Source: Alphaproteobacteria bacterium (GTDB lineage: Bacteria; Pseudomonadota; Alphaproteobacteria; Ferrovibrionales; Ferrovibrionaceae). From it: DNA of 64,000 nt. Position numbers and translations under genes: made by a program. Under the pieces are notes generated by a model. That model searched no databases. It was not told the origin of the DNA and worked only from the letters and a program-made list of their open reading frames with translations. Within the stretch, counting starts at the first letter, position 1. Each line of letters starts with the position of its first letter. Positions 17,720-31,669 of this stretch are shown here, piece by piece. The stretch is taken from positions 1 through 64,000 of the forward strand of contig JAHCJR010000003.1 of assembly GCA_026126165.1 (NCBI GenBank), read 5' to 3'.

Positions 17720-19252
17720 TCAGCCGGACGGCTCCTGCCATGTGGCATGCTCGTCCAGCGGATAGACCGGTCGCGGCAGACGCGTCCAGGCGAAGTTGTG
17801 CAGCGCCGGCGAGGTAAGTCCCGGGCAGTCCACTTCAATGATTCGCTCGCTCGCGAAGTATTCGTCGAAACCGGCTCGGAAATGGCCGCGGCTCTTGACC
17901 ACCAGGCAGCGCAGACGGCCGATATCGACGCCGAGCGCTTCGATCTGGCTTGGGTCCATGCATTGCTGGCGATTGGATATGACGACGACACCCACGCTCC
18001 CGATCTGCAGCAGGCAGGAGGGTCCCAGATCGCCCGACACGCCCTTAAGCACGCCGCGCCGACCGACGAACGGGCCATCATGCAGAAACGCAACTTGTGC
18101 CCTGGCCTCGAACGGCTGGGAGAATGCGTCGGTCTCCCCGGTGTTGAACTGCGCCTGGAACTCCGCGCCGACGCCGAGCCGGTGCGCCATGGCGGCGAGC
18201 GGCGGATCGTTGAAGACGGCAAGCAGGGCGCCGGTTACCCTTGCTTCGACGAGGGCACGAAGAATAAAGGTGGTGTTGCCGCGTCCGCCACCGCCTGGAT
18301 TGTCCGCCACATCGGCGAGGAGGACCGACGGCAGCGTCATGTCGTGCCCGGCCGCGCCGGCCATGGCGATGGCGTCCGCCAGCCCGGTCATGGACTTGCG
18401 AAAGCGCGTGCGCATCTTCCATGTGCGGCGACAGATATCGAGCGCAAGGGCGCGCGCCGCGCCGGAATTGGCGTTGCGCGCCGTGACCACGGCGCTGTAA
18501 CCGTTCTTTGGTGTGTCGCTGAAGGCGAACCCGGCCATGACCGAGACGTTCATGATGTCGCCGCCGACCCTTTCCTGCCCGTAAGCGATCATCTCGCCAT
18601 AGGGACCGTCGGCGGTCAGCAGCGCGATGGAAGGCGGGACCAGCGGCAGCTTGACCATGGCGATGGCCGTCTTTTCGCCTCCGAGGAGTTCGCGCATGTG
18701 CCGTGCGGCTTCGATGCCGCGATCATGTATGTCCGTATGCGGGTTCCTCAGATAGCCGACGAACACCGACAGGTTTCTGACCATCGCCTCGGAGACGTTG
18801 GCGTGCAGATCGAGCACGGCGATGACCGGAACGTCCGGCCCAACTATGGCGCGGACCGATGCGAAGAGTTCGCCGTCCGGGTCGTCGTTCTCCGTGCAGA
18901 GCGCGGCACCGTGCGATGAGATGAAGACCCCGTCGAGCGGCAGGGCGGCGCGCAGGCCGGCTTCGATCTCGGCATGGAACCCATCGAAGAATTCCTGCTG
19001 CACCGGCCCGCCCGGCTGCGCCAGCGCCACGCGCAAGGGAACCGGCGTCCAGGGGCCGGTCCTGTCCATCTCGGAAAAGAAGCCGGGCAGGTCGGGCAGC
19101 GTGATCGAAGCCCCCGAACGCGCTTCCTCGACGATGCGCTCGCCGCGTATGTCGACATCCTGCACGAAGTCTGCCGCCGTGCTGACCGGCGAGAAACGGT
19201 TGCATTCGATGGCAAAGCCGAGGATCGCGATTCTCGGGCTGGCTGGCGGCAC
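17720..19252 (-). CDS. M81 family metallopeptidase (MlrC-like), copy 2
   Basis: A 510-residue paralogue of the adjacent gene, starting at GTG 19252. It shares the family order of motifs: LGFAIECNRFSP, SSHGAALCTENDDPDGE, VLDLHANVSEAM, NPHTDIHDRG, LLADVADNPGGGGRGNT and VKSRGHFRAGF. At the metal motif it has H-A-N where copy 1 has H-C-H, so the two are diverged and probably differ in substrate. The H-x-N form is, as I recall, the usual one in this family. It heads the leftward block and shares an intergenic region with the divergent binding-protein gene. Confidence 0.87.
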   Translation of the reverse strand: MPPASPRIAILGFAIECNRFSPVSTAADFVQDVDIRGERIVEEARSGASITLPDLPGFFSEMDRTGPWTPVPLRVALAQPGGPVQQEFFDGFHAEIEAGLRAALPLDGVFISSHGAALCTENDDPDGELFASVRAIVGPDVPVIAVLDLHANVSEAMVRNLSVFVGYLRNPHTDIHDRGIEAARHMRELLGGEKTAIAMVKLPLVPPSIALLTADGPYGEMIAYGQERVGGDIMNVSVMAGFAFSDTPKNGYSAVVTARNANSGAARALALDICRRTWKMRTRFRKSMTGLADAIAMAGAAGHDMTLPSVLLADVADNPGGGGRGNTTFILRALVEARVTGALLAVFNDPPLAAMAHRLGVGAEFQAQFNTGETDAFSQPFEARAQVAFLHDGPFVGRRGVLKGVSGDLGPSCLLQIGSVGVVVISNRQQCMDPSQIEALGVDIGRLRCLVVKSRGHFRAGFDEYFASERIIEVDCPGLTSPALHNFAWTRLPRPVYPLDEHATWQEPSG

Positions 19253-19362
19253 TTGCGGATCCCTGGCGGAGTGAGGTGCTGATCGAGGAGGAGCGCGGTA
19301 GTCAAGGCATGCACTACTACTTTACAACTACCATTTTGTCTGTTGCGCTTCTTTACGTCACG

Positions 19363-19368
19363 TATAAT
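19363..19368 (+). promoter_or_regulatory. Candidate -10 element of the dppA-dppB transcript
   Basis: A perfect TATAAT lies 52 bases before the binding-protein ATG. No good -35 match is found at 17 bases; TTGCGC at 19343 is only 14 bases away. A short inverted repeat GTAGT/ACTAC at 19298-19317 lies upstream in the same divergent intergenic region and might bind a regulator. Confidence 0.35.
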
Positions 19369-19420
19369 CTTGTTCCAATGCCATCATAAATTACCAATAA
19401 CAGGGGAAAGGAATACGGAG

Positions 19421-21025
19421 ATGGGCAGGACGAAATCTGTATTTCGCGGCGTGCTTCTGGGCTCGGTTTCGGCGCTGTTCCTCGTTCACGCGGCTGCGAC
19501 GCCTGCCTCGGGGGAGAGCGTGCTGCGCGCGTCCATGCATGCGGATGTCAGGACGCTCGATCCGCACTGGACGACACAGACCATTGCCGGCATTCACGGC
19601 ATGCTGGTCTACGACACCCTGTTCGGCGTCGACGACGAACTGGTCCCGAAGCCGCAGATGGTGGGCGACTACAAGATCAGCGACGACCGCAAGACATATA
19701 CTTTCACCCTGCGCGAAGGGCTGAAGTTCCATGACGGGACGCCGGTCACGACCAACGACGTGATCGCCTCGCTCAAGCGCTGGGGCGCCAAGGACCAGGC
19801 GGCGCGCGCCATGATGGGTTACGTGAGCGCGCTGGAGAAGGTGGACGAACGCACCTTCCGCATGGTCCTGACCGAGCCTTACGGACTTGTGCTCGACACG
19901 CTCGGCAAGACCGGCACGATGGTTCCGATCATCATGCGCGAGAAGGATGCGAAGACCGAGGGCAACGCGCAGGTGACCGAGGCAATCGGGTCCGGCCCCT
20001 TCCGGATGCTGAAGGAGCAATGGGTTCCCGGCAGCAAGACGGTCTATGTCAAGAACGCGGATTACGTGCCGCGCAAGGAGGCGCCGTCCGGCTTCTCCGG
20101 CGCCAAGGTGCCCAGGGTTGATCGCATCGAGCTGCTGTGGATTGCCGATGCGCAGACGCGCATGCAGGCGCTGATCGCTGGCGAGATCGATTTCCTGGAA
20201 CAGCCATCCGTCGACTTCGTGCCGATTCTCGAGCAGACGCCGAACGTCAAGGTGATACGCACCGGCTCGGTGGACAGTCACTGGGGAACCATTCGCATCA
20301 ATCATCTGCATCCCCCGTTCGACAAGCCGGAGGCACGGCAGGCGCTCTATCACCTGGTCAAGCAGGAGGATTTCCTGCAGACCATCGTCGGAAATCCGCA
20401 GTATTACCGGGTCTGCTACAGCTTCATCACCTGCGGCACGGCCTATGCCGACGAGACCGGAAAGGAACAGGTCGGAGACTACAATCCGAAGAAGGCGCTC
20501 GAGAAGCTGAAGGCGGCCGGTTACAAGAACGAGCCGATTTCCGTGCTCGCGGCGACGGATCACCATACGATCACGCCGGCCTCCCAGGTTCTTCTGGCCA
20601 GCATGCGGGCGGCCGGGATCAACGTCGATGCGGTTTCCATCGACTGGGGTTCGGTGGTGGCGCGGCGGGCCAAGCGCGAGAAGCCGGAAGCTGGCGGCTG
20701 GAACATCTTCGTCACCACGTCGTCCGGCGTTTCCTCGCTGAATCCGGCTCTCAACACCTGGCTCGGCGCAGGGTGCGAGAAGGCCAATGTCGGCTGGCCA
20801 TGCGATGAGGAACTCGACCGGCTGCGTGCCCAGTTCGCCTTCGCCGGAAGCGTCGAGGAGCGCAAGCAGATCGCGAGGAAGATCCAGGAACGCGCCGTGC
20901 ATGTGGTGCCCTACATCATCTTCGGTCAGTGGACGCAGCCGCTCGCTTACCGCTCGGACAAGATCGACGGCATCGTTCCGGTGACCGGCACCACGGTGTT
21001 CTGGAACATCGCGAAGAAGGGCTGA
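19421..21025 (+). CDS. dppA: Peptide/solute ABC transporter substrate-binding protein (SBP_bac_5, DppA type)
   Basis: A 534-residue periplasmic binding protein. ATG 19421 is chosen because it begins a good signal peptide (MGRTKSVFRG, hydrophobic core, cleavage near ASGES) with GGAG just upstream; the frame extends 26 codons further but that part has no signal character. Family features include ASMHADVRTLDPHWTT, the LREGLKFHDGTPVTTNDV motif and a typical C-terminal IVPYIIFGQ region. It starts the rightward half of the transporter: permease DppB follows after a strong hairpin. Substrate probably a peptide or peptide-like compound, by context with the M81 peptidases. Confidence 0.92.
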   Translation: MGRTKSVFRGVLLGSVSALFLVHAAATPASGESVLRASMHADVRTLDPHWTTQTIAGIHGMLVYDTLFGVDDELVPKPQMVGDYKISDDRKTYTFTLREGLKFHDGTPVTTNDVIASLKRWGAKDQAARAMMGYVSALEKVDERTFRMVLTEPYGLVLDTLGKTGTMVPIIMREKDAKTEGNAQVTEAIGSGPFRMLKEQWVPGSKTVYVKNADYVPRKEAPSGFSGAKVPRVDRIELLWIADAQTRMQALIAGEIDFLEQPSVDFVPILEQTPNVKVIRTGSVDSHWGTIRINHLHPPFDKPEARQALYHLVKQEDFLQTIVGNPQYYRVCYSFITCGTAYADETGKEQVGDYNPKKALEKLKAAGYKNEPISVLAATDHHTITPASQVLLASMRAAGINVDAVSIDWGSVVARRAKREKPEAGGWNIFVTTSSGVSSLNPALNTWLGAGCEKANVGWPCDEELDRLRAQFAFAGSVEERKQIARKIQERAVHVVPYIIFGQWTQPLAYRSDKIDGIVPVTGTTVFWNIAKKG

Positions 21026-21061
21026 CCTTCCTCGCGCGATCCCTGTTGACGATCCGTCACC

Positions 21062-21087
21062 GCGGCGGCCGCCTTCGCGGCCGCCGC
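21062..21087 (+). terminator. Strong hairpin between dppA and dppB
   Basis: An 11-base perfect inverted repeat (GCGGCGGCCGC, loop CTTC, then its complement) lies 36 bases after the binding-protein stop. There is no T-run, so it more likely protects or attenuates the upstream mRNA than terminates fully. This is a common way to keep a binding protein in excess over its permease. Confidence 0.5.
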
Positions 21088-21107
21088 CCTTCGCTCCGGA
21101 GACCGGC

Positions 21108-22049
21108 ATGGGCGCCTATATAGTCCGGCGGCTGCTGGCCACCTTTCCGGTCATGGCGGTGGTGGCAGTGTTCGTATTCCTCCTGCTGCGGCTCGCGCCG
21201 GGTGATCCGGCCGCGCTGATTGCGGGAGACGACGCCACCAGCGCGGATATCGATGCGATCCGCGCCAAGCTCGGGCTCGACCTGCCGATCTGGGAGCAGT
21301 TCGTCCTGTGGATCGCCGATATCCTGCGCGGCGACCTCGGCGTCTCGATCTTTTCAAACCTGCCGGTCACGGTCCTGATCGGCCAGCGGCTAGAACCCAC
21401 GCTCATGCTGATGCTGGCAACCCTGTTCGTGGCGGTGACGCTGGCGATTCCGCTTGGCGTCCTCGCCGCATGGAAGGCTCGGACGGCGATCGACCGGATA
21501 GTCATGGTCTTTTCCGTTCTCGGCTTTGCGGTACCCGTATTCCTGGCTGGCTATGTGCTGATCTATGTGTTTTCGATCCAGCTCCGCTGGCTGCCAGTCC
21601 AGGGTTATCGCCCGCTCGCCCAGGGGCTCTGGCCCTGCTTGCAGGGCCTCATCCTGCCGGCGATCGCGCTCGGGACAACCTACATGGCGCTGATCGCCCG
21701 GATCACCCGCGCCTCCATGCTCGAAGTGCTGGCGCAGGACTATATCCGCACCGCGAATGCGAAAGGGTTGGCGACACGGCGGGTTCTGCTGCTGCATGCG
21801 CTCAAGAACGCATCTGTCCCGATTGTGACTGTAATTGGCATCGGCATTGCCCTGCTGATTTCCGGCGTCGTGATCACGGAGACGGTGTTCAACATTCCCG
21901 GCCTAGGCCGCCTTACGGTCGATGCGGTGCTCAAGCGGGATTACCCGATCGTGCAGGGCCTGATCCTGGTGTTCGCCGGGGTGAAGGTTCTGATAAACCT
22001 GATGATCGATCTCTCCTATGTCTTTCTCGATCCGCGCATCCGCTACTGA
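21108..22049 (+). CDS. dppB: Dipeptide/oligopeptide ABC transporter permease (DppB/OppB type)
   Basis: A 313-residue inner-membrane permease with six hydrophobic helices and the OppB-type N-terminus (YIVRRLLATFPVM, then LRLAPGDPAALIAG). The EAA docking loop is YIRTANAKGLATRRVLLLHALKNA. It is the missing partner of the DppC-type permease encoded on the other strand at 15217-16089; no second ATPase or DppC gene lies on this strand. The ATG at 21108 follows GGAGACCGGC. A weak inverted repeat (AACAGT/ACTGTT, 22076-22095) lies after its stop and may mark the transcript end. Confidence 0.93.
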   Translation: MGAYIVRRLLATFPVMAVVAVFVFLLLRLAPGDPAALIAGDDATSADIDAIRAKLGLDLPIWEQFVLWIADILRGDLGVSIFSNLPVTVLIGQRLEPTLMLMLATLFVAVTLAIPLGVLAAWKARTAIDRIVMVFSVLGFAVPVFLAGYVLIYVFSIQLRWLPVQGYRPLAQGLWPCLQGLILPAIALGTTYMALIARITRASMLEVLAQDYIRTANAKGLATRRVLLLHALKNASVPIVTVIGIGIALLISGVVITETVFNIPGLGRLTVDAVLKRDYPIVQGLILVFAGVKVLINLMIDLSYVFLDPRIRY

Positions 22050-22159
22050 TCGCTCTCGGGGCTGAGCCCTGTGTTAACAGTTTGTAGAGACTGTTCTCCC
22101 TAACCTTGCCGGAGAGGAATATCACAGGCGCTGGGCATGCTTGCCCGAGCGGGGCAGCC

Positions 22160-24412
22160 GTGTCGAAAAACCCCATCGAGCCGGATACGACGAGCGAGCC
22201 CGGAATGCGAGCGACCGGCACGGCCGGCGGTGCCAGGCAGTTGCGACTAAGGCTGAGCTTCCGCGCTTCCATCATGGCGGTATCGCTGGTGACGATCCTC
22301 GTCACTTCGGCTGCCGTCCACTTTCCCTGGCATTTCACCTCGCGCGAGAACAACGCCCAGATCGTCGGCACGCTCAACCAGACCATTCTCGATGGAATCC
22401 GGCGCGAGATCGACGAGCTGTTCCGGTCCACGGAGGTGGCGCAGCAGACCGTGCTCGAACTGCTCGAGAAGGACATCGTGCGCATCGAGGACAGGGAACG
22501 ACGCGAGCAGATGATGTTCGGCTTCCTGCGGGCGAACCGGCATTTCTCCTGGGTCAGCTTCGGGCGGCCAGATGGAAACTTCTACGGGGCGCAGCGTCGC
22601 GACGAGGACAATTTCCGGCTGGTCGAGAGTATCTGGAGCGCCGACCGGGCCGAGGCGACACGGACGGAGGCTTACTATGCAAGCGATGGCGAAGGCATAT
22701 TCGCCACGCAGACCAAAGTGAAGACGAACGACTATTTCGCACCGGGCCGCGAATGGTACCGGCTGGCGGTGGACAGCGCCGGCCAGCATGTCTGGACGGA
22801 TGTCTATGTTTTTGCATCCAGCGGCAAGCCCGGCATCAATTCCGCCATCACGTTCGATCGCGACGGCGAACTGGTCGGGGTCGTCAGCATCGCCATCGAG
22901 CTGGACCGCATCTCCACCTATCTGCGCGAACTGCGGATCGCCGAAGGGGGCCAGGCCTTCATCGTCAACCGGGAAGGGGAGATCATCGCCTTTAGCGACC
23001 CGGCCGAGGTGACCACGGCCAGTGGCACCGAATACCGTTTCCTCCGCAAGCTCGGCGAATCCTGGAATCCAGTCCTGCGCATCGCCAATCTCGCCATTAA
23101 GGGTTCCGGCATCGACCTGAACGGTGTTTCGGCGCCCGTGCAGGCGATCCAGGTCGGACCGGAGGACCACGAGCGCTACTTCGTCACCATGGCGCCGGCA
23201 GGCAGGCGGGACTGGCTGATCGGGACGGTCATTCCGGAACGCGATTTCATGACCGGCATCGAACGCAATCAGGAGCGCCTACTCTATACCATACTTGCCG
23301 CAGTGGTCCTGGTGGTCCTGGTCGCGGCGGGCGTCTCGCGCTGGCTCTTCATCCATCCGATCACGCGGATGATCCGCCAGAGCGCGCGCATCAGGCGTTT
23401 CGATACGGGCTCCATAGAGCCGGTCCCTTCGCTGATCTCCGAACTCGAGGGTCTGTCGGCTGCTCAAGTGAGCATGGCGCAGGGACTTGAATCCTTCCGT
23501 CGCTACCTTCCGGCGGACCTGCTGCAGACGCTGATGGAACAGGGCGTGGCGGCCGAGGTGGGCGGCGAGCGCCGCACAATGACCGTGCTCTTCATGGATC
23601 TCGCCAACTTCACGACCTTGACCGAGCGCATGGGTCATCGCATCCTGCCCATGCTTGGCGACTATCTCGGCGCCATGTCGAAGGGCCTCATCGCCCATCG
23701 GGCGACGATCGACAAGTTCATCGGCGACGCGGTCATGGCTTTCTGGGGCGCTCCGCGGTTCAACGAGGAGCATCCGACCGATGCCTGCCGCGCCGCGCTC
23801 GACTGTCAGCGCCGCATGGCGGAACTCAAGGCCCGCTGGCGAGGCATGGGCCTGCCGGAGCTCGATGTGCGCATCGGCATCAATACCGGCCGGGTGGTAG
23901 TGGGGAATATCGGCTCGGCCGAACGGCTCGATTACACGGTGATCGGCGATCCGGTCAATCTGGCGAGCCGCCTGGAAGGTCTCAACAAGCTCTACGGCAC
24001 GGGTATCATCATCGGACAATCGACTTACGAGCTGGCGAAATACGATATCGTCGCCCGGCGCCTCGACTACGTGAATGTCAAGGGCAAGGATGAGACCATC
24101 GCCGTGTATGAACTGTTGGAGATGGCGGATGGACCGATGGAACGGCCATCCGTGGACTGGATCCGCGCCTATGAGGAGGGGCTCGAGTTCTACCGGGGCG
24201 GCGAATACGAGCGGGCGCAGCACTGTTTCCGGCGCGCCATCGACCTTCGCGGCGGCGATGCGCCTGCTGCGCGCTATGTGGATTTGTGCGCGCAGAAACT
24301 CATGCGCGCCGCCCGTCCCCGGCGGCCATCGGCCGGGCGCCGATCCGCCACCGGCGCGACGCCAATTCCCTTGCCCTCGCCGCGCGAGACGCGGCGCGGC
24401 GGCGCGGACTGA
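22160..24412 (+). CDS. Membrane adenylate/guanylate cyclase with extracytoplasmic Cache sensor
   Basis: About 750 residues (from GTG 22160; a TTG at 22106 or ATG at 22205 are alternatives). Order: short cytoplasmic N-terminus, transmembrane helix near 36-55, a large double-Cache-like periplasmic sensor (about 75-365, with REWYRLAVD and WTDVYVFASSG), a second helix near 373-397, a HAMP-like linker, and a class III cyclase domain (about 465-645). Metal aspartates are D480 (LFMDLANF) and D523 (FIGDAVMAFWG); YTVIGDPVNLASRLEG carries Thr at the base-recognition site, as in class IIIb adenylate cyclases. A C-terminal TPR-like helical tail follows. It should make cAMP in response to a periplasmic ligand. 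It converges on the next operon with a 36-base gap. Confidence 0.9.
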   Translation: MSKNPIEPDTTSEPGMRATGTAGGARQLRLRLSFRASIMAVSLVTILVTSAAVHFPWHFTSRENNAQIVGTLNQTILDGIRREIDELFRSTEVAQQTVLELLEKDIVRIEDRERREQMMFGFLRANRHFSWVSFGRPDGNFYGAQRRDEDNFRLVESIWSADRAEATRTEAYYASDGEGIFATQTKVKTNDYFAPGREWYRLAVDSAGQHVWTDVYVFASSGKPGINSAITFDRDGELVGVVSIAIELDRISTYLRELRIAEGGQAFIVNREGEIIAFSDPAEVTTASGTEYRFLRKLGESWNPVLRIANLAIKGSGIDLNGVSAPVQAIQVGPEDHERYFVTMAPAGRRDWLIGTVIPERDFMTGIERNQERLLYTILAAVVLVVLVAAGVSRWLFIHPITRMIRQSARIRRFDTGSIEPVPSLISELEGLSAAQVSMAQGLESFRRYLPADLLQTLMEQGVAAEVGGERRTMTVLFMDLANFTTLTERMGHRILPMLGDYLGAMSKGLIAHRATIDKFIGDAVMAFWGAPRFNEEHPTDACRAALDCQRRMAELKARWRGMGLPELDVRIGINTGRVVVGNIGSAERLDYTVIGDPVNLASRLEGLNKLYGTGIIIGQSTYELAKYDIVARRLDYVNVKGKDETIAVYELLEMADGPMERPSVDWIRAYEEGLEFYRGGEYERAQHCFRRAIDLRGGDAPAARYVDLCAQKLMRAARPRRPSAGRRSATGATPIPLPSPRETRRGGAD

Positions 24413-24448: not shown

Positions 24449-25624
24449 TCAACGGGCCGCTGCCTGGAGCGGCAGGATGCGCTTGCCGCCCTGCCGGACG
24501 AGCCGGCCCTCCGGGTCGATCACCGTTCCGGCCCGCTCGAAGAAATCGAAAGGAATCTTGAGGCCGATGGCGCGGGCGCGCTCGAAGCTGATGGCGATGT
24601 CCGGCGGCGTGACGATGCCGACCGGCAGTTCGCCGGGCCGCGCTGTTCCGTCCAGAACATGGCCGGCATAGACGGCGGCGAGATAGGCGTTGCTCTCGAA
24701 GCTCACGCCGATGGAAATGACCGCACTATCCTTCCCCGGCTGAACAATGTCCGGAACGGCGCTCAGGACCGGGAGACGGCCTGCTGCCTGGTTGATGACG
24801 GCAATCTCCTGGAATACCGAGGTGCTGCCGGTGATCCAGAGGGCGCTGTGCGCGAGAGCGGGGTCGGTTTCGCGCATGCGCTCGAGCGCCGCCGGGATCA
24901 GTTCGCGCAATTCGCGGCTGGCCTGCTCGGGGTCGCGAACCGCAACCTCGATGGCACGCAGCCCCTCGCGCTCCGCCGCCGCGATCAGCGGCCGGGACTG
25001 GGTCTGCACGGCACTCTGATTGTCGGCATCGACGAGCACGGCGAGCGCGCGCAGGCCGGGCATGAGCTTGCGGATATAGGCAAGCTGCACATCGACCGAC
25101 ATGTTGAGGGAGGTGAAGGCGAAGTTGGTCTGCGAGCCCTTCTCGTAGTGCGCGATCTGCCCCAGCTCCACGGGGTCCTTGGCACAGACGCTGAGCACGG
25201 GTATCGCACCGCCGCGATAGTGCGCGTGAAGCCAGGCGACGCTGTCGGATCCCATCGCGAGGATAAGATCGGCTGCGATCGTCTCCGCCCGGGCGAGGGC
25301 CGCGCGGCCGCGATGATCCCGCCGCTTGAAGTTGAAGGCCTCGAAGATGATATTGTCGCCGCGCTGGCGGAAGTATTCGAGCATGCGCGACATTGCCGTG
25401 TCGTAGGCGCTCGACTGACGGGGGTAGAGGACGAGCACGCTTCTCGCGGGCGCGCGCCCTGCATTGACCGGCTGAATGCGTACCCGTCGGTCGTCCAGTT
25501 CCGTCGCGATCCAGTTTCGCGCCGCTTCCTCGCTCAGCGCGAACCAGTCGCTGACCGGCAGCATCTCGGCGCGAAGCGGGCCGGCGAGCAGAAGGATGGC
25601 GAACAGCGCGAGGATCGGCCTCAT
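24449..25624 (-). CDS. ABC-type substrate-binding protein (ABC_sub_bind/DUF534-like), without its own transporter
   Basis: A 391-residue exported protein starting at ATG 25624, which begins a signal peptide (MRPILALFAILLLAGPLRAE) and overlaps the upstream MFS-fusion stop as ATGA. The body has two Rossmann-like halves: SVLVLYPRQSSAYDTAMSRM, ADLILAMGSDSVAW, VLSVCAKDPVELG, then VLVDADNQSAVQTQS and a C-terminal TPPDIAISFERARAIGLKIP. This resembles the periplasmic TrpX-like binding proteins. No ABC permease or ATPase is near, so it may feed ligand to the MFS fusion or act as a sensor. Translational coupling makes joint function likely. It is the last gene of the operon. Confidence 0.75.
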   Translation of the reverse strand: MRPILALFAILLLAGPLRAEMLPVSDWFALSEEAARNWIATELDDRRVRIQPVNAGRAPARSVLVLYPRQSSAYDTAMSRMLEYFRQRGDNIIFEAFNFKRRDHRGRAALARAETIAADLILAMGSDSVAWLHAHYRGGAIPVLSVCAKDPVELGQIAHYEKGSQTNFAFTSLNMSVDVQLAYIRKLMPGLRALAVLVDADNQSAVQTQSRPLIAAAEREGLRAIEVAVRDPEQASRELRELIPAALERMRETDPALAHSALWITGSTSVFQEIAVINQAAGRLPVLSAVPDIVQPGKDSAVISIGVSFESNAYLAAVYAGHVLDGTARPGELPVGIVTPPDIAISFERARAIGLKIPFDFFERAGTVIDPEGRLVRQGGKRILPLQAAAR

Positions 25625-27978
25625 GCGGCCACCGGGACCGGCCGCGCGTTGCGTTCCGGCGTCGAGAAGAGCAAGGTGAGGATGGCGAGGCCGGCGGCGA
25701 CCCATAGGAAGGCGGTGCCAGTCGTGCCGGAAAGCATGAGCGCCTGGCCGGCGACCAGCGGGCCGGCGATATGGCCGGTGCGCTCCAGCAGTCGATAGCT
25801 TGCCGTCACGCGGGCCTCGCCGATACGGGCGGCGAGGCTGCCATTGGCCACGTGGCTCACGATCGGGGCGTTGATGCAGCCATGGGCGATTCCGGTGGCG
25901 AAACTAGCCAGCGCCGCGCCGGCCATGGCGATGGACGCCCCGTTGCCGCCATTTGTGCCGTACATGATCGCTGCCGCCAGGCCGACAAGACCTAGTGCGG
26001 AGAGCGCGCCGCCGGCCAGGACGACCGGCTTGGGGCGCCCGAGCCGATCGCAGAGGCGCGCGGCCGGTCCGGTGCAGAGCAGTACGCCCAGGGCATAGAG
26101 CATGATGATCTGCCCGATATCGTCCTGCGCGAAGCCCGCGCTGCCGAGCATGATCGGCAGTGCGAATACGATGCAGCCGGTCATGACCATCTTGGCGGGA
26201 ATTCCGGCTGCGAGCATGGCCTTGAGGAAATCGGCATCGGTCAGGATCGTGCCCAGCTCGCGCCAGGTGCCCCGGCGGCGGATCGTCGATGGCGTGGCCA
26301 TGACCAGTCGCGGGAAACGAACGAAGATCAGGAACGCCAGCCCCGCGGCGATCGCCAGGGCGATATGAATGACCCCGTCTGGTCCGAGATAGACCACAAG
26401 GAGCGAGCCGATCGCCACTCCGGAGATCATGCCGCCCTGGAACCCGGTGACGATCACCGATGCGGCGGCGGCTTTCCGTCCGATTCCGGCCTCGTTCAGC
26501 AGGGCTTGCTGCACGGCAATGAAGATGAAGCCCTGGCCAAGGCCGGCGGCCAGACGTGCCGTCAGCACCAGCGCGAGCCGTTCCTGCGCGAGCGCGAGCA
26601 GGAGGAAACTCGCGAGGATCGCAGCGGCGCCGGCCAGCATGACCGGCCGCGCGCCGAGCCGCGCGGTGAGCGAGGATGCGGGCATGAGGCTGAGCGCGAA
26701 CATGAGAAAGTAGGACATGAACAGCAGCGAGACCGCATGACCGCCGAGCCCGGCCACCTGCGCGATGTTCTGCAGGACCCCGGGAAGGAACGGGTAGATC
26801 ATGTGCTCGATGAAGACGGCGCCGAAGAAAACCGGGTGAATGACCGAAGCGGCCGCGGTCCCGTCGCGTGCCGGAGGTCCTTCGCGCCCGTCGCGGGCGG
26901 TTGCGGCAAGCTGGAGAAAGACCGCCGCCAGGAGTGCCGACGCGACGAAGAGCGCGGCGAAACTTCTGATCCCGCGCAGGAGCTGCGACCAGACCGCATC
27001 GGCCGGCAGGACGACGAAGGCCCGGGAATGGCCCAGCGGATCGATGGCGCGACCATGCTCGAAGCTCCAGCGCTGGTCGCGCCAGGGCTGGCCGGCCTGG
27101 CCGGGGTCGCTGTGGATCACGGCGATGCCGTCGACCACGAGCGCGGCAGCGGCGATGTCCGGGTTGTTCCGGCGATATTCGGCGAAGGTCTGGTCCAGGC
27201 CGGTCACGTCGGCGGTCGTGAGGCCAAGTTCGATCAGGCTGGCCAGCCGATGCCCAAGCGACGCACCGAGCGCCCGTGCCTTCGCCTGCACGCCGTCGGC
27301 GTAAAGCTGGATCATGGTGGCCAGCACCGCCGCCGCCATCGCGCAGAAGAACGCGGCGAGGACTACCTGCCGCAACCTTGCGGGCGCTACATTCCATCTG
27401 CGAGCCAGGATGGCGCAGGCGAACGGAAAGGCACAGGCCAGCAGGATGGCGAGCGGCAGTAGTGGCGCGAAGGCCCGGTCGATGTCCGCGCGCAGGCGGG
27501 ATTCGGGCATCGAGACGATGATCTCGCCCACCGTCTCGAAGCGATTGTGCAGCGGGCGCGCCACCTGCAGATGTCCTGCGCCGCGCCGTGCATCGATCGT
27601 ATTGGGCTGCCGCGCGCTCCTGGCGCCGTCGGCTGGTATCGCCGCGAGATCGGCGGGGCCGACGGCGAAAACCTGCCTGCCGGTCCGATCCAGGACCAGG
27701 ATTCCCTCGATCGTTTCGTCGGATTCGAGGATGCTCCGGGCAATGGTATCGAAGCCGGCGAACTGCTCCAGCGGTAGCCCGGCCTGGACGTGCGGGTCCA
27801 TGGCGCCGGCAAGCAACTCGCCCTGGGCGGCCAGCTTCTCGAACTGGAAGCGTGGCTGGACGCGGGAGACCTCGCTCCAGCCGATATACAGCAGCAACAG
27901 GAGCGAGGCAGCGGCGACGCAAGCGAGGATCGGAAAGCCGGCAATGCCGGCATGGATCGCACTCCGAAGGCTGGTCAA
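25621..27978 (-). CDS. MFS transporter fused to N-terminal extracytoplasmic sensor domains
   Basis: A 785-residue protein, nearly twice the usual MFS length. Order: helix 13-33; a periplasmic domain about 34-170 with Cache/PAS-like strands (EGILVLDRTGRQVFAVG, then VARPLHNRFETVGEIIVSMPES); two helices near 172-192 and 204-226; a second periplasmic domain 227-338 (AAAALVVDGIAVIHSDPG); a helix near 339-358; and a 12-helix MFS transporter from about 380 to the end with the loop-like RLGARP and DRLGRPKP motifs. The start is TTG 27978, overlapping the ATP-grasp stop as TTGA, preceded by GGAG. A ligand-gated transporter or transceptor is a reasonable inference. The fusion is continuous, with no sign of frameshift. 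Confidence 0.82.
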   Translation of the reverse strand: MTSLRSAIHAGIAGFPILACVAAASLLLLLYIGWSEVSRVQPRFQFEKLAAQGELLAGAMDPHVQAGLPLEQFAGFDTIARSILESDETIEGILVLDRTGRQVFAVGPADLAAIPADGARSARQPNTIDARRGAGHLQVARPLHNRFETVGEIIVSMPESRLRADIDRAFAPLLPLAILLACAFPFACAILARRWNVAPARLRQVVLAAFFCAMAAAVLATMIQLYADGVQAKARALGASLGHRLASLIELGLTTADVTGLDQTFAEYRRNNPDIAAAALVVDGIAVIHSDPGQAGQPWRDQRWSFEHGRAIDPLGHSRAFVVLPADAVWSQLLRGIRSFAALFVASALLAAVFLQLAATARDGREGPPARDGTAAASVIHPVFFGAVFIEHMIYPFLPGVLQNIAQVAGLGGHAVSLLFMSYFLMFALSLMPASSLTARLGARPVMLAGAAAILASFLLLALAQERLALVLTARLAAGLGQGFIFIAVQQALLNEAGIGRKAAAASVIVTGFQGGMISGVAIGSLLVVYLGPDGVIHIALAIAAGLAFLIFVRFPRLVMATPSTIRRRGTWRELGTILTDADFLKAMLAAGIPAKMVMTGCIVFALPIMLGSAGFAQDDIGQIIMLYALGVLLCTGPAARLCDRLGRPKPVVLAGGALSALGLVGLAAAIMYGTNGGNGASIAMAGAALASFATGIAHGCINAPIVSHVANGSLAARIGEARVTASYRLLERTGHIAGPLVAGQALMLSGTTGTAFLWVAAGLAILTLLFSTPERNARPVPVAA

Positions 27979-29204
27979 TTCGCTCCGCTCCCCGCGTCGG
28001 CCAGCGCAGGCAGGCGCCCGGCTGCGTCCGGACGCATGGCCAGGAGTTCATGTAGCCGGCTGGCCAGGATGGAGAGGATCAGGTCGTCGTAGCTCATGCC
28101 CTGCTCGTCGAGGCCGAGCGCGACCAGGTTGGTCGAATTGCCGTCGGGAACCTTGAGGTCCGGTTTGGGATTCGCTTCGAGGATATGCAGCTTGCCCTGC
28201 TCGTCGGCGCGCAGGTCTATACGGACGATCGTTTCCAGGTTGAAATCGAGATAGACGTGCCGGGCGAGCCGGCAGAGCCTGCGGCGCAGGAGCGCGTCCT
28301 GCGGCAGCGCGGCATCCAGCAGGCGTACCCGATCCGGCGTGATGGCGCGGTGATCCATCGAGGCGAAGATCGCCTCGCCGGGATCGAGAAGCCGTTCGGT
28401 CGGCGAAAGAACGAACGGCGTGCGTGACCAGAAGAGTTCCCCTTCACGGGCGACGACGGGGCCCATGACCGCGATGCAGAATTCGCGGCCGGGCAGGAAT
28501 CGCTCGATCAGGACCAGGTTGCGGCAGCTCGCCGCCACCTGGTCGACGGTCGCCCCCAGATCCTCCGTGGTCTCTGCCGTGTGAATGTTGAGCGATGCGC
28601 GGCCGGTCACCGGCTTGACGACGAACGGACCGTGATAGTCGCGGAAGGTTGCCCGGAAGCGCGAGTTCATCGCCGGCAAAAACCGGCCCCGATCGGGGTT
28701 CCAGACCATGAACTCCGCCGTCGGATATCCCAGTGCGACCAGTTCGCGCTTGAAGGCGTGCTTGTTGTCGAGCAGCGCCGCGTTGAGCGGATTGTGCCCG
28801 ACATAAGGCATGCCAAGCATCTCCAGCAGGGCGGGGGCATGGCAGACCGGGCTTAACCCCTGCAGCCCGCCGGTATTGAGCCAGACCAGATCGATATGCT
28901 CGCGCCGCAGCCGCTCCGGCAGCCGCATGTCCTCCGGCAGCGTCAGCGCCGCGCGCACACCGATCCGTCGCAAGGCGCCGGCAAGATCTTCGGCGACGGC
29001 AGCATAGCTCTTCCAGGATCTGGTCAGGCGGCCGGCATGGAGGACGGCTCCCGCCTCCGCGCGATCCCCGCCATGGACGACCGCGATGCGCAGCCGGGCA
29101 ATGGTCTGCGCGATCCGCTCGTGCCACTCCCTCGCCGGAAAGGGCTGGAGCCGGCGCATCTGGCGATCAGGAGATGGCCGTTGCAGATTGGCCGACTGGG
29201 ACAT
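27975..29204 (-). CDS. ATP-grasp ligase, D-alanine-D-alanine ligase-like
   Basis: A 409-residue cytosolic enzyme. A preATP-grasp domain (about 38-150, with LVWLNTGGLQG and YVGHNPLNAALLDNKH) precedes an ATP-grasp domain (about 165-395) with ATP-binding strands GPFVVKPVTG and LIERFLPGREFCIAVMG and the magnesium-site motif ILEANPKPDL. It is not a housekeeping Ddl: no mur or fts genes are near, and it is coupled by TTGA to the MFS fusion. Ligases of this type join a carboxylate to an amine at the cost of ATP, so it may build or modify a small peptide-like molecule that the MFS protein exports or senses. Product unknown. Confidence 0.8.
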   Translation of the reverse strand: MSQSANLQRPSPDRQMRRLQPFPAREWHERIAQTIARLRIAVVHGGDRAEAGAVLHAGRLTRSWKSYAAVAEDLAGALRRIGVRAALTLPEDMRLPERLRREHIDLVWLNTGGLQGLSPVCHAPALLEMLGMPYVGHNPLNAALLDNKHAFKRELVALGYPTAEFMVWNPDRGRFLPAMNSRFRATFRDYHGPFVVKPVTGRASLNIHTAETTEDLGATVDQVAASCRNLVLIERFLPGREFCIAVMGPVVAREGELFWSRTPFVLSPTERLLDPGEAIFASMDHRAITPDRVRLLDAALPQDALLRRRLCRLARHVYLDFNLETIVRIDLRADEQGKLHILEANPKPDLKVPDGNSTNLVALGLDEQGMSYDDLILSILASRLHELLAMRPDAAGRLPALADAGSGAN

Positions 29205-29305: not shown

Positions 29306-31669
29306 TCACTTCTCCTTCAGGGTCCATACCCCGTCCCAGTCGGCGGGTGGGGGATGCTGCAGGCAATGGCTGCAGCGATCGACATAGATCGCGGCGACCC
29401 GGTCCGACTGGTTCAGCGCGAGCGCCTCCCGAAAGGCCGCACCGGCATCCCGCCATTGGCGCGCGCGATAGAGGTCGAGGCCGTGGGCGAAGCAGCGAAG
29501 GGCCGGTATCAGGTTGGGGAAGGTCTCCTCGGTATGATATCCGAGCGCTTCGTAGATCGTGGTCGGACGGCTCTTGCCCTTGACGCGGATCAGGTCGACC
29601 TCGCGAACGATGCCGGGCGCGCGGGCATTCACCAGGGTTTCGCCCGCCAGGAGGACCGACGTGCCGAAGTATTTGTTGGCGCCTTCCAGTCGTGCCGCGA
29701 GGTTGACGCTGTCGCCGATCACCGTGTAATCCATGCGCTTCATCGAGCCGATGGAACCGGCAAGGACCGGACCCGTAGCCAGTCCGATGCCGATCTCGAT
29801 CGCGGGCTGTCCCTCGGCCGCGCGCCGGGCGTTCAGGCGGCGCAATGCCCGCATCATCTCGTTGGCGACCGCCAGCGCATTGTCCGCGTCGGCGGCGCTC
29901 GCGATCGGCGCGCCGAAAGTCGCCATGATCGCATCGCCGATATACTTGTCGAGAATGCCGCCATGGCGAAACACGACCTCGACCATGTCGGAGAAGTATT
30001 CGTTCAGCATGCGCACGGTCTCGCGTGCCGTCATGCCTTCCACCAGGCTGGTGAATCTGCGGATGTCGGAGAAGAGCACCGTCGCGAGTTGGGAGGTGCC
30101 TTCCGTGACGCTTTCCCCCTCCGCGAGCAGGCGGTCTACGACCTCCTTTGCCATATACCGGGACATGGTGGAGCGGACGCGCTTCTCGCGGGTGATATCC
30201 TCGAAAACCAGCATATAGCCGATCACGGTGCCCTGCAGATCCCTGAGCGAGGTTGCAGTGAGATTGACCGAGGCCCGGGCACCGCCGGGCAGGATCAGGT
30301 CGGTATCGGCGGAAAAGTCACTCTCGCCGCTCTTCATCACTCGCTCGAGGCTGCGCATGATCCAGGGATTGATTTCCCCGAACACCTCTTCCGCCGGACG
30401 GCCTTCGATCCCGTCGCCGGTCAGGCGGAGCAGGCGCGCCGCGCTCTCGTTGACCTTGACCACGCGGCAGTTCCTGTCGAGCGTGAGAACGCCGTTGGTC
30501 AGCGATTTGAGGACACTTTCATTGTAGTTTTTCAGCTCAAGAACATCGGTAAAGAGTCGCGCGTTGGCGATGGCAATGGCGATCTGCGCGGAGAAGGCCT
30601 TCAGCCGGCGCACGCAGTGCGGCGTAAAGGGACCATCGCGCCGGTTGAGCACCTGCATGACGCCGATTTTGTCCCCAGCCTTGTCGCGCACCGGCAGGCA
30701 GAGAATGCTTCTGGTGCGGAATCCGGACCGCCGGTCGACGTGCTGGTTGAAACGGGGATCCAGGTAGGCATCGGCGATGTTCTCCACTTCGCCGCTGCGG
30801 AAGGCACTGCCGGCGATGCCCGTGCCGGCCGGCATGCGGATCTCCGCCAGGGCGGTTCCTCCGCCGGTCGCTACCTTGGACCAGAGTTCGTCTCGCACCG
30901 GATCGTGCAGGAACAGCGTGGCGCGCTCCGCATCGAGCAGTTCGGTGGTCGCCTGCACGATGCGACCGAGCAGGGTATCAAGTTGCAGGTCGGAGGAAAT
31001 CGCCTCGCTGATTTCCAGAAGCTGTGCTTCTTCCCGACGTGCCCGTTCCAGGCTTTCGTAGAGCCGCGCATGCTCCAGCGCCGCCGCAGCCTGGGCGGCG
31101 ATCGCTTCGAGCATGGCGCGGTCGGCCTGATCGAAGGTTCGCGACTGGCGGTTCAGGGCCTGCGCGACGCCGACGACGCGGGATGCGGGATCCTTGACCG
31201 GCACGCAGAGGATGTCGCGGGTGCGGAAACCGGAGCGGCGGTCGACCTCCGTATTGAACCGCGGATCGGCGTATGCGTCGGGAACGATTTCGGATTGCCC
31301 GGAACGAAATACCGCGCCTGCGATTCCGGCGCCGGCCGGTATGCGGATTTCCTCGATCCGCGTGCCGGCCATGACACGGGAGAAAAGCTCGTCCGATTCA
31401 GGGTCGTGCAGAAACAGGCTCGCCGTCTCGGCTTCCATGACCTCGGCGATCAATGCGACCATGCGCGGCAGCATGGTATCCAGGGGCAGGGTGGCTGGAA
31501 TCGTATTGACCACCTGCACCAATTGCGAGAGGCGCCGGATCGTCGATGCCGCACGCTCCGCCATCTCCGCGCCGCCGGATGCAAGCCCCTCGGCCAGTTG
31601 CCGCGCCTCTGCCGCATCCAGGCCGCGCGCGAACGCCAGATCGACAAGTTGCTCCGGAGATTTCGGCAT
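29306..31669 (-). CDS. GAF-GAF-PAS adenylate cyclase
   Basis: A soluble 787-residue signalling enzyme. Order: helical N-terminus (1-50), GAF1 (about 60-205), GAF2 (about 225-375), PAS (about 385-500), class III cyclase (about 520-710) and a TPR-like C-terminal tail ending near DWDGVWTLKEK. The GAF domains are close duplicates; both contain VDRRSGFRTR followed by ILC(V/L)PV(K/R)D. Metal aspartates are D535 (LFSDIRRF) and D579 (KYIGDAIMATFG); YTVIGDSVNLAARLEG indicates class IIIb. It should make cAMP under control of small cytosolic ligands or redox state. It heads the leftward operon; TAGAAT (plus-strand 31687-31692) is a possible -10. A 100-base gap separates it from the ATP-grasp gene. Confidence 0.9.
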   Translation of the reverse strand: MPKSPEQLVDLAFARGLDAAEARQLAEGLASGGAEMAERAASTIRRLSQLVQVVNTIPATLPLDTMLPRMVALIAEVMEAETASLFLHDPESDELFSRVMAGTRIEEIRIPAGAGIAGAVFRSGQSEIVPDAYADPRFNTEVDRRSGFRTRDILCVPVKDPASRVVGVAQALNRQSRTFDQADRAMLEAIAAQAAAALEHARLYESLERARREEAQLLEISEAISSDLQLDTLLGRIVQATTELLDAERATLFLHDPVRDELWSKVATGGGTALAEIRMPAGTGIAGSAFRSGEVENIADAYLDPRFNQHVDRRSGFRTRSILCLPVRDKAGDKIGVMQVLNRRDGPFTPHCVRRLKAFSAQIAIAIANARLFTDVLELKNYNESVLKSLTNGVLTLDRNCRVVKVNESAARLLRLTGDGIEGRPAEEVFGEINPWIMRSLERVMKSGESDFSADTDLILPGGARASVNLTATSLRDLQGTVIGYMLVFEDITREKRVRSTMSRYMAKEVVDRLLAEGESVTEGTSQLATVLFSDIRRFTSLVEGMTARETVRMLNEYFSDMVEVVFRHGGILDKYIGDAIMATFGAPIASAADADNALAVANEMMRALRRLNARRAAEGQPAIEIGIGLATGPVLAGSIGSMKRMDYTVIGDSVNLAARLEGANKYFGTSVLLAGETLVNARAPGIVREVDLIRVKGKSRPTTIYEALGYHTEETFPNLIPALRCFAHGLDLYRARQWRDAGAAFREALALNQSDRVAAIYVDRCSHCLQHPPPADWDGVWTLKEK

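Follow-up and report, generated by a model that had tools for sequence, protein, structure and literature searches.

Gene content of the locus

The subject of our analysis is a gene in a stretch of 64,000 nucleotides (GenBank assembly GCA_026126165.1, contig JAHCJR010000003.1, positions 1 to 64,000), below called the window, from an alphaproteobacterium of the Ferrovibrionaceae. It encodes a transporter of the major facilitator superfamily (MFS) preceded by two predicted extracytoplasmic sensors, and it stands between the genes of a ligase and of a substrate-binding protein. The trio and the domains of its central member, in the order of transcription, are:

27975..29204, minus strand: ATP-grasp ligase of the D-Ala-D-Ala ligase superfamily, first gene of the trio (Pfam, NCBIfam, alignment)
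25621..27978, minus strand: sensor-sensor-MFS protein, 785 aa, TTG start (open reading frame, Pfam, AlphaFold2, orthologues)
27463..27882, minus strand: sensor 1 (about residues 33-172), predicted Cache/PDC fold of the CitA/DcuS type (AlphaFold2 and PDB structure comparison)
26962..27309, minus strand: sensor 2 (about residues 224-339), predicted Cache/PDC fold, homologous to sensor 1 (AlphaFold2 and PDB structure comparison)
25645..26865, minus strand: 12-helix MFS domain (about residues 372-778), DHA1-like (Pfam, profile and structure comparison)
24449..25624, minus strand: substrate-binding protein of the TrpX/ABC_sub_bind superfamily (signal-peptide-like N-terminus; NCBIfam, PDB)

The central open reading frame is as an earlier sequence-only reading of this DNA had described it; its 785 codons contain no internal stop, and orthologues with the same layout were found in more than 40 genomes. 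A frameshift or an assembly artefact is ruled out, since the architecture recurs in independent genomes. The TTG start overlaps the stop codon of the ligase gene (TTGA), and the stop codon overlaps the likely start of the binding-protein gene at 25624 (ATGA), the longest reading frame of which reaches 25705. Because of both overlaps the genes for the ligase, the sensor-MFS protein and the binding protein can be regarded as packed into one operon. This gene context, which the sequence-only reading did not see, changes the picture, as it turns one odd fusion into a conserved multi-gene system.

Architecture of the sensor-transporter fusion

The protein is laid out as two successive units of transmembrane helix, Cache domain and transmembrane helix, followed by a 12-helix MFS domain. 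Hydropathy analysis gives four N-terminal transmembrane helices (about residues 12-30, 173-191, 205-223 and 340-358), which enclose one soluble stretch of about 140 residues and another of about 115, and then the MFS. Most of the loops predicted to be cytoplasmic have an excess of basic over acidic residues, which both soluble stretches lack, and from this charge bias both stretches are placed outside the membrane. AlphaFold2 agrees with hydropathy in the order of helices and sensors that had been proposed from the sequence; the full-length model, with 40 orthologues in the input, has a pLDDT of 88.1 and a pTM of 0.86, and that of residues 1-377, with 34 orthologues, a mean pLDDT of 89.5. The N-terminal regions are modelled as Cache/PDC folds, which rules out their being unfolded linkers or additional transport helices.

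In the models each sensor starts with a long helix that rises from the membrane, continues with a short one and returns to the membrane by way of a sheet of five or four strands; the secondary structure is that of a Cache/PDC domain, in which a long N-terminal helix runs into a five-stranded sheet and a transmembrane helix stands on either side. Compared with structures in the PDB, sensor 1 resembles the CitA domain 8bgb (Z 12.0, 114 residues, 2.9 Å) and DcuS 3by8 (Z 11.8, 116 residues, 2.9 Å), and sensor 2 resembles, over residues 221-336 of the model, the receptor domain of PctB, 5lto (Z 9.0, 109 residues, 3.0 Å). Foldseek matches for the sensors are mostly Cache-type receptors and kinases. 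The two sensors also match one another in profile-profile comparison (E 1e-5) and are thus mutually homologous.

As for family assignment, no Cache family stands out in a Pfam search of 34 orthologues, the best being sCache_3_2 (E 0.019) and dCache_1 (E 0.04); in one relative of the HAMP-bearing type described below sCache_3_2 reaches E 3.5e-5, just under the cut-off. A profile search of the PDB with the sensors gave nothing usable, and only structure comparison identified them. The assignment to Cache therefore rests on the fold and not on family membership, since no curated Pfam Cache family matched. The proposal of Cache-type sensors made from the sequence is thus borne out by structure prediction and PDB comparison and not by Pfam, which recognised neither of them, and we consider the identification of both N-terminal soluble regions as Cache-type sensors to be supported by the models.

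The same silence of Pfam, in which no known ligand-binding family is recognised, could be taken to mean that the N-terminal domains sense nothing and only help an ordinary efflux pump to fold or oligomerise. This is hardly credible in view of the confident Cache fold, of its presence in tandem homologous copies, and of the HAMP-type relatives, where one of the units exists as a separate gene beside the HAMP-bearing sensor-MFS.

The transporter domain gave the sole Pfam match in the protein, to MFS_1 (E 5e-22, 78.7 bits against a cut-off of 33.4), and Pfam finds no domain, and so no cytoplasmic output domain, after it. In structure comparison it superimposes on VMAT2 with Z 42.7 over 382 residues (2.9 Å), and it scores Z 38.7 with NorA and Z 37.6 with SotB. 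When the MFS half of the window's protein was searched alone against the PDB by phmmer, no match was obtained at 1e-3, but the family profile did match, the solved structures found being those of NorA, SotB, EmrD, EfpA and an L-lactate transporter. The best-scoring solved relatives are mostly proton-coupled exporters (NorA, SotB, EmrD, EfpA). Polar residues in or next to the MFS helices, namely E391, R475, Q490, K596, H699, E732, R733 and H736, are conserved in at least 90% of the rows of a 45-sequence orthologue alignment. This conservation argues for a working transporter, and the MFS should transport.

Conservation of the operon and its partner proteins

A scan of named genomes gave 44 loci with clear orthologues. 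The orthologue in a sister genome is 94% identical to the window's protein, and the others are 28-42% identical. The hosts are mostly Alphaproteobacteria (Kiloniellaceae, Pelagibius, Desertibaculum, Bosea, Methylobacterium and others), and beyond them Acidiferrobacteraceae and the clostridial Pseudobacteroides cellulosolvens. Orthologues are also carried by Vibrio plasmids; a phylum-wide search at a strict limit added alphaproteobacterial members only.

The group keeps the order of ATP-grasp ligase, sensor-MFS and TrpX-type binding protein, with the sensor-MFS in the middle. By a scripted count all three genes are adjacent and collinear in 31 of the 44 loci; three more (L040, L055 and L058) fail this count only through an overlong upstream start of the longest MFS reading frame and were counted as collinear, and six (L047, L052, L053, L060, L061 and L063) were left out, as the contig ends inside the gene set. 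The 38 loci with enough flanking sequence thus comprise 34 collinear ones, two rearranged (L046, L059) and two without the ligase (L028, L048); the binding protein is present in every one of the 38. When the ligase and the binding protein were each searched by tblastn against 72,556 plasmids, the only strong matches were the same six Vibrio plasmids that carry the sensor-MFS. Three of these were inspected for the surroundings of the trio (L105, L118 and L119, of V. tubiashii, V. gigantis and V. crassostreae), and there it is enclosed in a cluster of type VI secretion genes, with tssH on one side and the FHA gene on the other, and is accompanied by a second binding-protein gene.

The ligase aligns with Ddl across the ATP-grasp core. 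It scores 66.5 bits with the NCBIfam Ddl subfamily, far below the cut-off of 245.65, and a separate housekeeping Ddl is encoded elsewhere in the same genome (288.7 bits); for both reasons we reject the ligase as the cell's own Ddl and suggest that it probably links an amino acid to a different partner. The same genome also has, on contig C77 (loci L108 and L109), two more ligases of the Ddl superfamily in tandem, distinct from the Ddl on contig C128.

The binding protein matches the NCBIfam TrpX family with E 2e-9, under the cut-off, and has 6hni and 3lkv as PDB matches. It is similar, at a low level, to the aromatic amino-acid binding proteins TrpX, VC_1101 and CD0873, and it differs from them in that no ABC permease or ATPase gene is found among the neighbours common to at least 4 of the 44 orthologous loci, so that the arrangement is not the one expected of an ABC importer. 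Aromatic amino acids are the ligands of its relatives (PMC6816091). We did not adopt Tyr, Phe or Trp as the ligand of the window's protein, the similarity being too low.

Sister groups and origin of the fusion

Two divergent sister groups of relatives were found, one with a two-sensor MFS (L065-L074, L136 and L137) and one with a one-sensor MFS bearing HAMP (L120-L133); both follow the plan of the operon with other components. Among L065-L074 an ABC_sub_bind protein is present in nine of the ten loci, a GCS2-type ligase stands directly after the MFS in five, and a Cache-SpoIIE type phosphatase occurs in six. The GCS2 ligase, non-homologous to the ATP-grasp enzyme, takes its place in this group. 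At two thermodesulfobacteriotal loci, L072 (13016-14083) and L073 (5253-6314), an alanine-racemase-like protein is encoded, at L073 along with DUF1611, and no ligase was seen at either; the racemase-like protein hints at D-amino-acid chemistry.

HAMP is a relay domain, and in the second group Pfam detects it between the sensor and the MFS (41.7 bits in L127 and 33.0 bits in L126, cut-off 25). An ABC_sub_bind protein is close by in all 14 loci, a separate gene of transmembrane helix, sensor and transmembrane helix lies directly upstream in 13 of them, SpoIIE occurs in nine, and RsbW-like kinases or GNAT-like proteins are encoded at several loci. Azospirillum brasilense Sp7, a strain used in laboratories, also has the set. 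Taken together, the separate sensor and the HAMP-MFS are the counterparts of the two units that are fused in the window's protein, and this is a natural gene-fusion pair. Loci L146 and L147 also belong to the Cache-HAMP-MFS family, with HAMP directly before the MFS.

Of the mere 23 ABC_sub_bind genes that 16 sister-group genomes contain altogether, 16 adjoin a sensor-MFS gene, so that chance neighbourhood can be set aside. Plain MFS relatives of 400-460 aa, without sensors, likewise adjoin ABC_sub_bind proteins (L138, L142), and the binding protein may have been paired with the MFS before the fusion to sensors or independently of it. In a tree of the MFS part all 33 sensor-bearing rows fall into one group apart from three plain MFS proteins (support 97/96); a single origin is likely, not proven, because the outgroup is small and the branches are long.

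The constancy of the binding protein, which is the most regular partner in the orthologues and in both sister groups, brings to mind an importer in which the Cache-like domains would mainly dock the TrpX-type protein as it delivers its substrate to the MFS, much as in TRAP and TTT systems, where the transporter is not an MFS. The lack of ABC genes among the conserved neighbours and the pairing seen in plain MFS relatives are consistent with it. Such an importer is nevertheless quite unlikely, as the MFS is closest to exporters and, in one group, the HAMP that separates the sensor from the MFS speaks for signalling and not for docking.

Another explanation starts from the enzymes: the ligase would make a small amino-acid-derived signal for export by the MFS, and the binding protein, along with the Cache domains, would read this signal back and hand it on to a kinase, cyclase, GGDEF-EAL or SpoIIE protein. 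Unrelated ligases (ATP-grasp, GCS2) and racemase-like or GNAT-like proteins do occupy comparable places, these sets come nearly always with the binding protein and mostly with a signalling enzyme, and the MFS is exporter-like. We consider such a signalling cassette decidedly improbable, given that two loci dispense with the ligase, that its product could equally be a detoxified or metabolic compound, and that no signal molecule is known.

Signalling enzymes near the operon

In the window the operon is flanked by two cyclases of class III type:

29306..31669, minus strand: GAF-GAF-PAS-adenylate/guanylate cyclase, about 100 nucleotides upstream of the operon, at the same position in the sister genome
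22106..24412, plus strand: dCache-adenylate/guanylate cyclase, convergent with the operon

A homologue of the dCache-cyclase adjoins the operon in seven other loci outside the sister genome. Signalling proteins lie nearby in 34 of the 44 loci with orthologues. They are histidine kinases, frequently accompanied by a response regulator, GGDEF-EAL proteins, or Cache-cyclases resembling that at 22106-24412, and the domains were checked in ten of them. Farther on, within 17720-22049, an open reading frame that resembles an MlrC-type peptidase points away from the genes of an ABC binding protein of dipeptide type (19343-21025) and a permease (21108-22049); this set is kept with the trio only in the sister genome.

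With four kinds of signalling enzymes near the gene and a HAMP relay before the MFS in one sister group, it might be supposed that the MFS has turned into a receptor or relay, its transport being secondary or lost, and that together with the Cache domains it senses a ligand and talks to the kinase, cyclase or phosphatase. UhpC is a precedent for such a transceptor. We think this unlikely for three reasons: the residues typical of transport are kept in 90% or more of the orthologues aligned; the partner enzymes that were checked have Cache, GAF or PAS sensors of their own and need no input from the MFS; and there is no cytoplasmic output domain beyond the transporter. Further precedents are proteins of the CbrA/CrbS/RpuS type (PMC9100948).

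Comparison with known systems

The units of transmembrane helix, long helix, Cache domain and transmembrane helix are the same as in the known Cache receptors, that is, methyl-accepting chemotaxis proteins, histidine kinases, cyclases and GGDEF proteins (CitA, DcuS, PctB), from which the window's protein differs in having a 12-helix MFS transporter as its output domain. According to the census of Cache domains of 2016, the partners are receptors, kinases, cyclases, phosphatases, transcription factors and ion channels; the word 'transporter' is absent from its main text (PMC4822843). With the DHA1-type exporters NorA and SotB, and with VMAT as a structural neighbour, the protein shares the 12-helix core, the motif B arginine and the aspartate before helix 9; unlike them it has about 370 additional N-terminal residues with four transmembrane helices and two periplasmic sensors, and is genetically tied to a binding protein.

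The TRAP and TTT systems likewise pair a periplasmic binding protein with a secondary transporter, but their membrane subunits belong to other families than MFS, and here the transporter is an MFS with Cache domains of its own. The SLC5-STAC histidine kinases (CbrA, CrbS, RpuS) are alike in that a transporter domain is joined to signalling parts in one protein. They use another transporter family with the kinase attached through STAC (PMC9100948), whereas here the sensors stand before the transporter and there is no fused kinase, Pfam finding MFS_1 and neither SLC5 nor STAC with a kinase. The window's protein is therefore partly like a Cache receptor, a transceptor and a binding-protein-dependent secondary transporter, and a strict member of none of these classes. 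No account of the fusion or of the operon was found in the open-access literature, subscription journals lying outside that scope.

Functional interpretation

From our analysis and the considerations above, we tentatively favour, with somewhat less than even confidence, a sensor-regulated secondary transporter that would be the membrane hub of a small periplasm-facing system. Its function would most likely be that of a sensor-regulated, proton-coupled transporter of an amino-acid-derived compound, with the binding protein as its periplasmic partner. In favour of the hub we count the folds of the two sensors, the intact MFS with its conserved polar residues and exporter-like relatives, the constancy of the operon, the concentration of ABC_sub_bind genes beside the sensor-MFS, the HAMP relay in one sister group, the nearby signalling enzymes and the exchange of the ligase for a GCS2 enzyme. 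The possibility raised by the sequence-only reading, ligand-gated transport or a transporter doubling as a receptor, fits the evidence.

Starting from the observed parts and their genetic linkage, we infer how such a system could work. The binding protein would catch an amino-acid-like ligand in the periplasm and present it to the Cache domains or compete with them for it; the ligand state would set the activity of the MFS, to which it would be relayed through the transmembrane helices and the linker in the cytoplasm. The MFS in turn would move, most likely outward, a compound made or modified by the ATP-grasp ligase, whose level outside both the binding protein and the Cache units might read, while the neighbouring kinase, cyclase or GGDEF-EAL protein could report the same condition to the cell.

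Several observations weigh against the sensor-regulated hub. The ligase is not indispensable, because two orthologous loci do without it; the binding protein, found also beside plain MFS relatives, may serve the MFS rather than the sensors; and the mirror-tree or distance correlation among sensor, MFS, binding protein and ligase reflects shared history only and no specific contact.

On the widest view, which we consider possible and on the whole rather doubtful, all these gene sets could belong to one widespread and undescribed class of chemical communication or ligand control. In it an amino-acid ligase would make a small compound, a Cache(-HAMP)-MFS would move it, a TrpX-type protein together with the Cache units would read it on the outer side of the membrane, and an exchangeable signalling enzyme (kinase, cyclase, GGDEF-EAL or SpoIIE phosphatase) would report it. 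An MFS would then act together with a periplasmic binding protein, a combination of which we know no other case.

The Cache domains, a very large class among the extracellular sensors of bacteria, here form part of a secondary transporter, in one group by way of HAMP, and this transporter has genetic ties to a binding protein of the periplasm, to an amino-acid ligase and to a signalling enzyme. Every single part was already known, and if the ligase product were indeed an exported and re-read signal, the whole would be categorically new. The gene context points to an undescribed bacterial system that couples small-molecule transport to sensing; if this is true, ligand control of MFS transport could be tested on it, and it might also be a new signalling circuit based on a small molecule.

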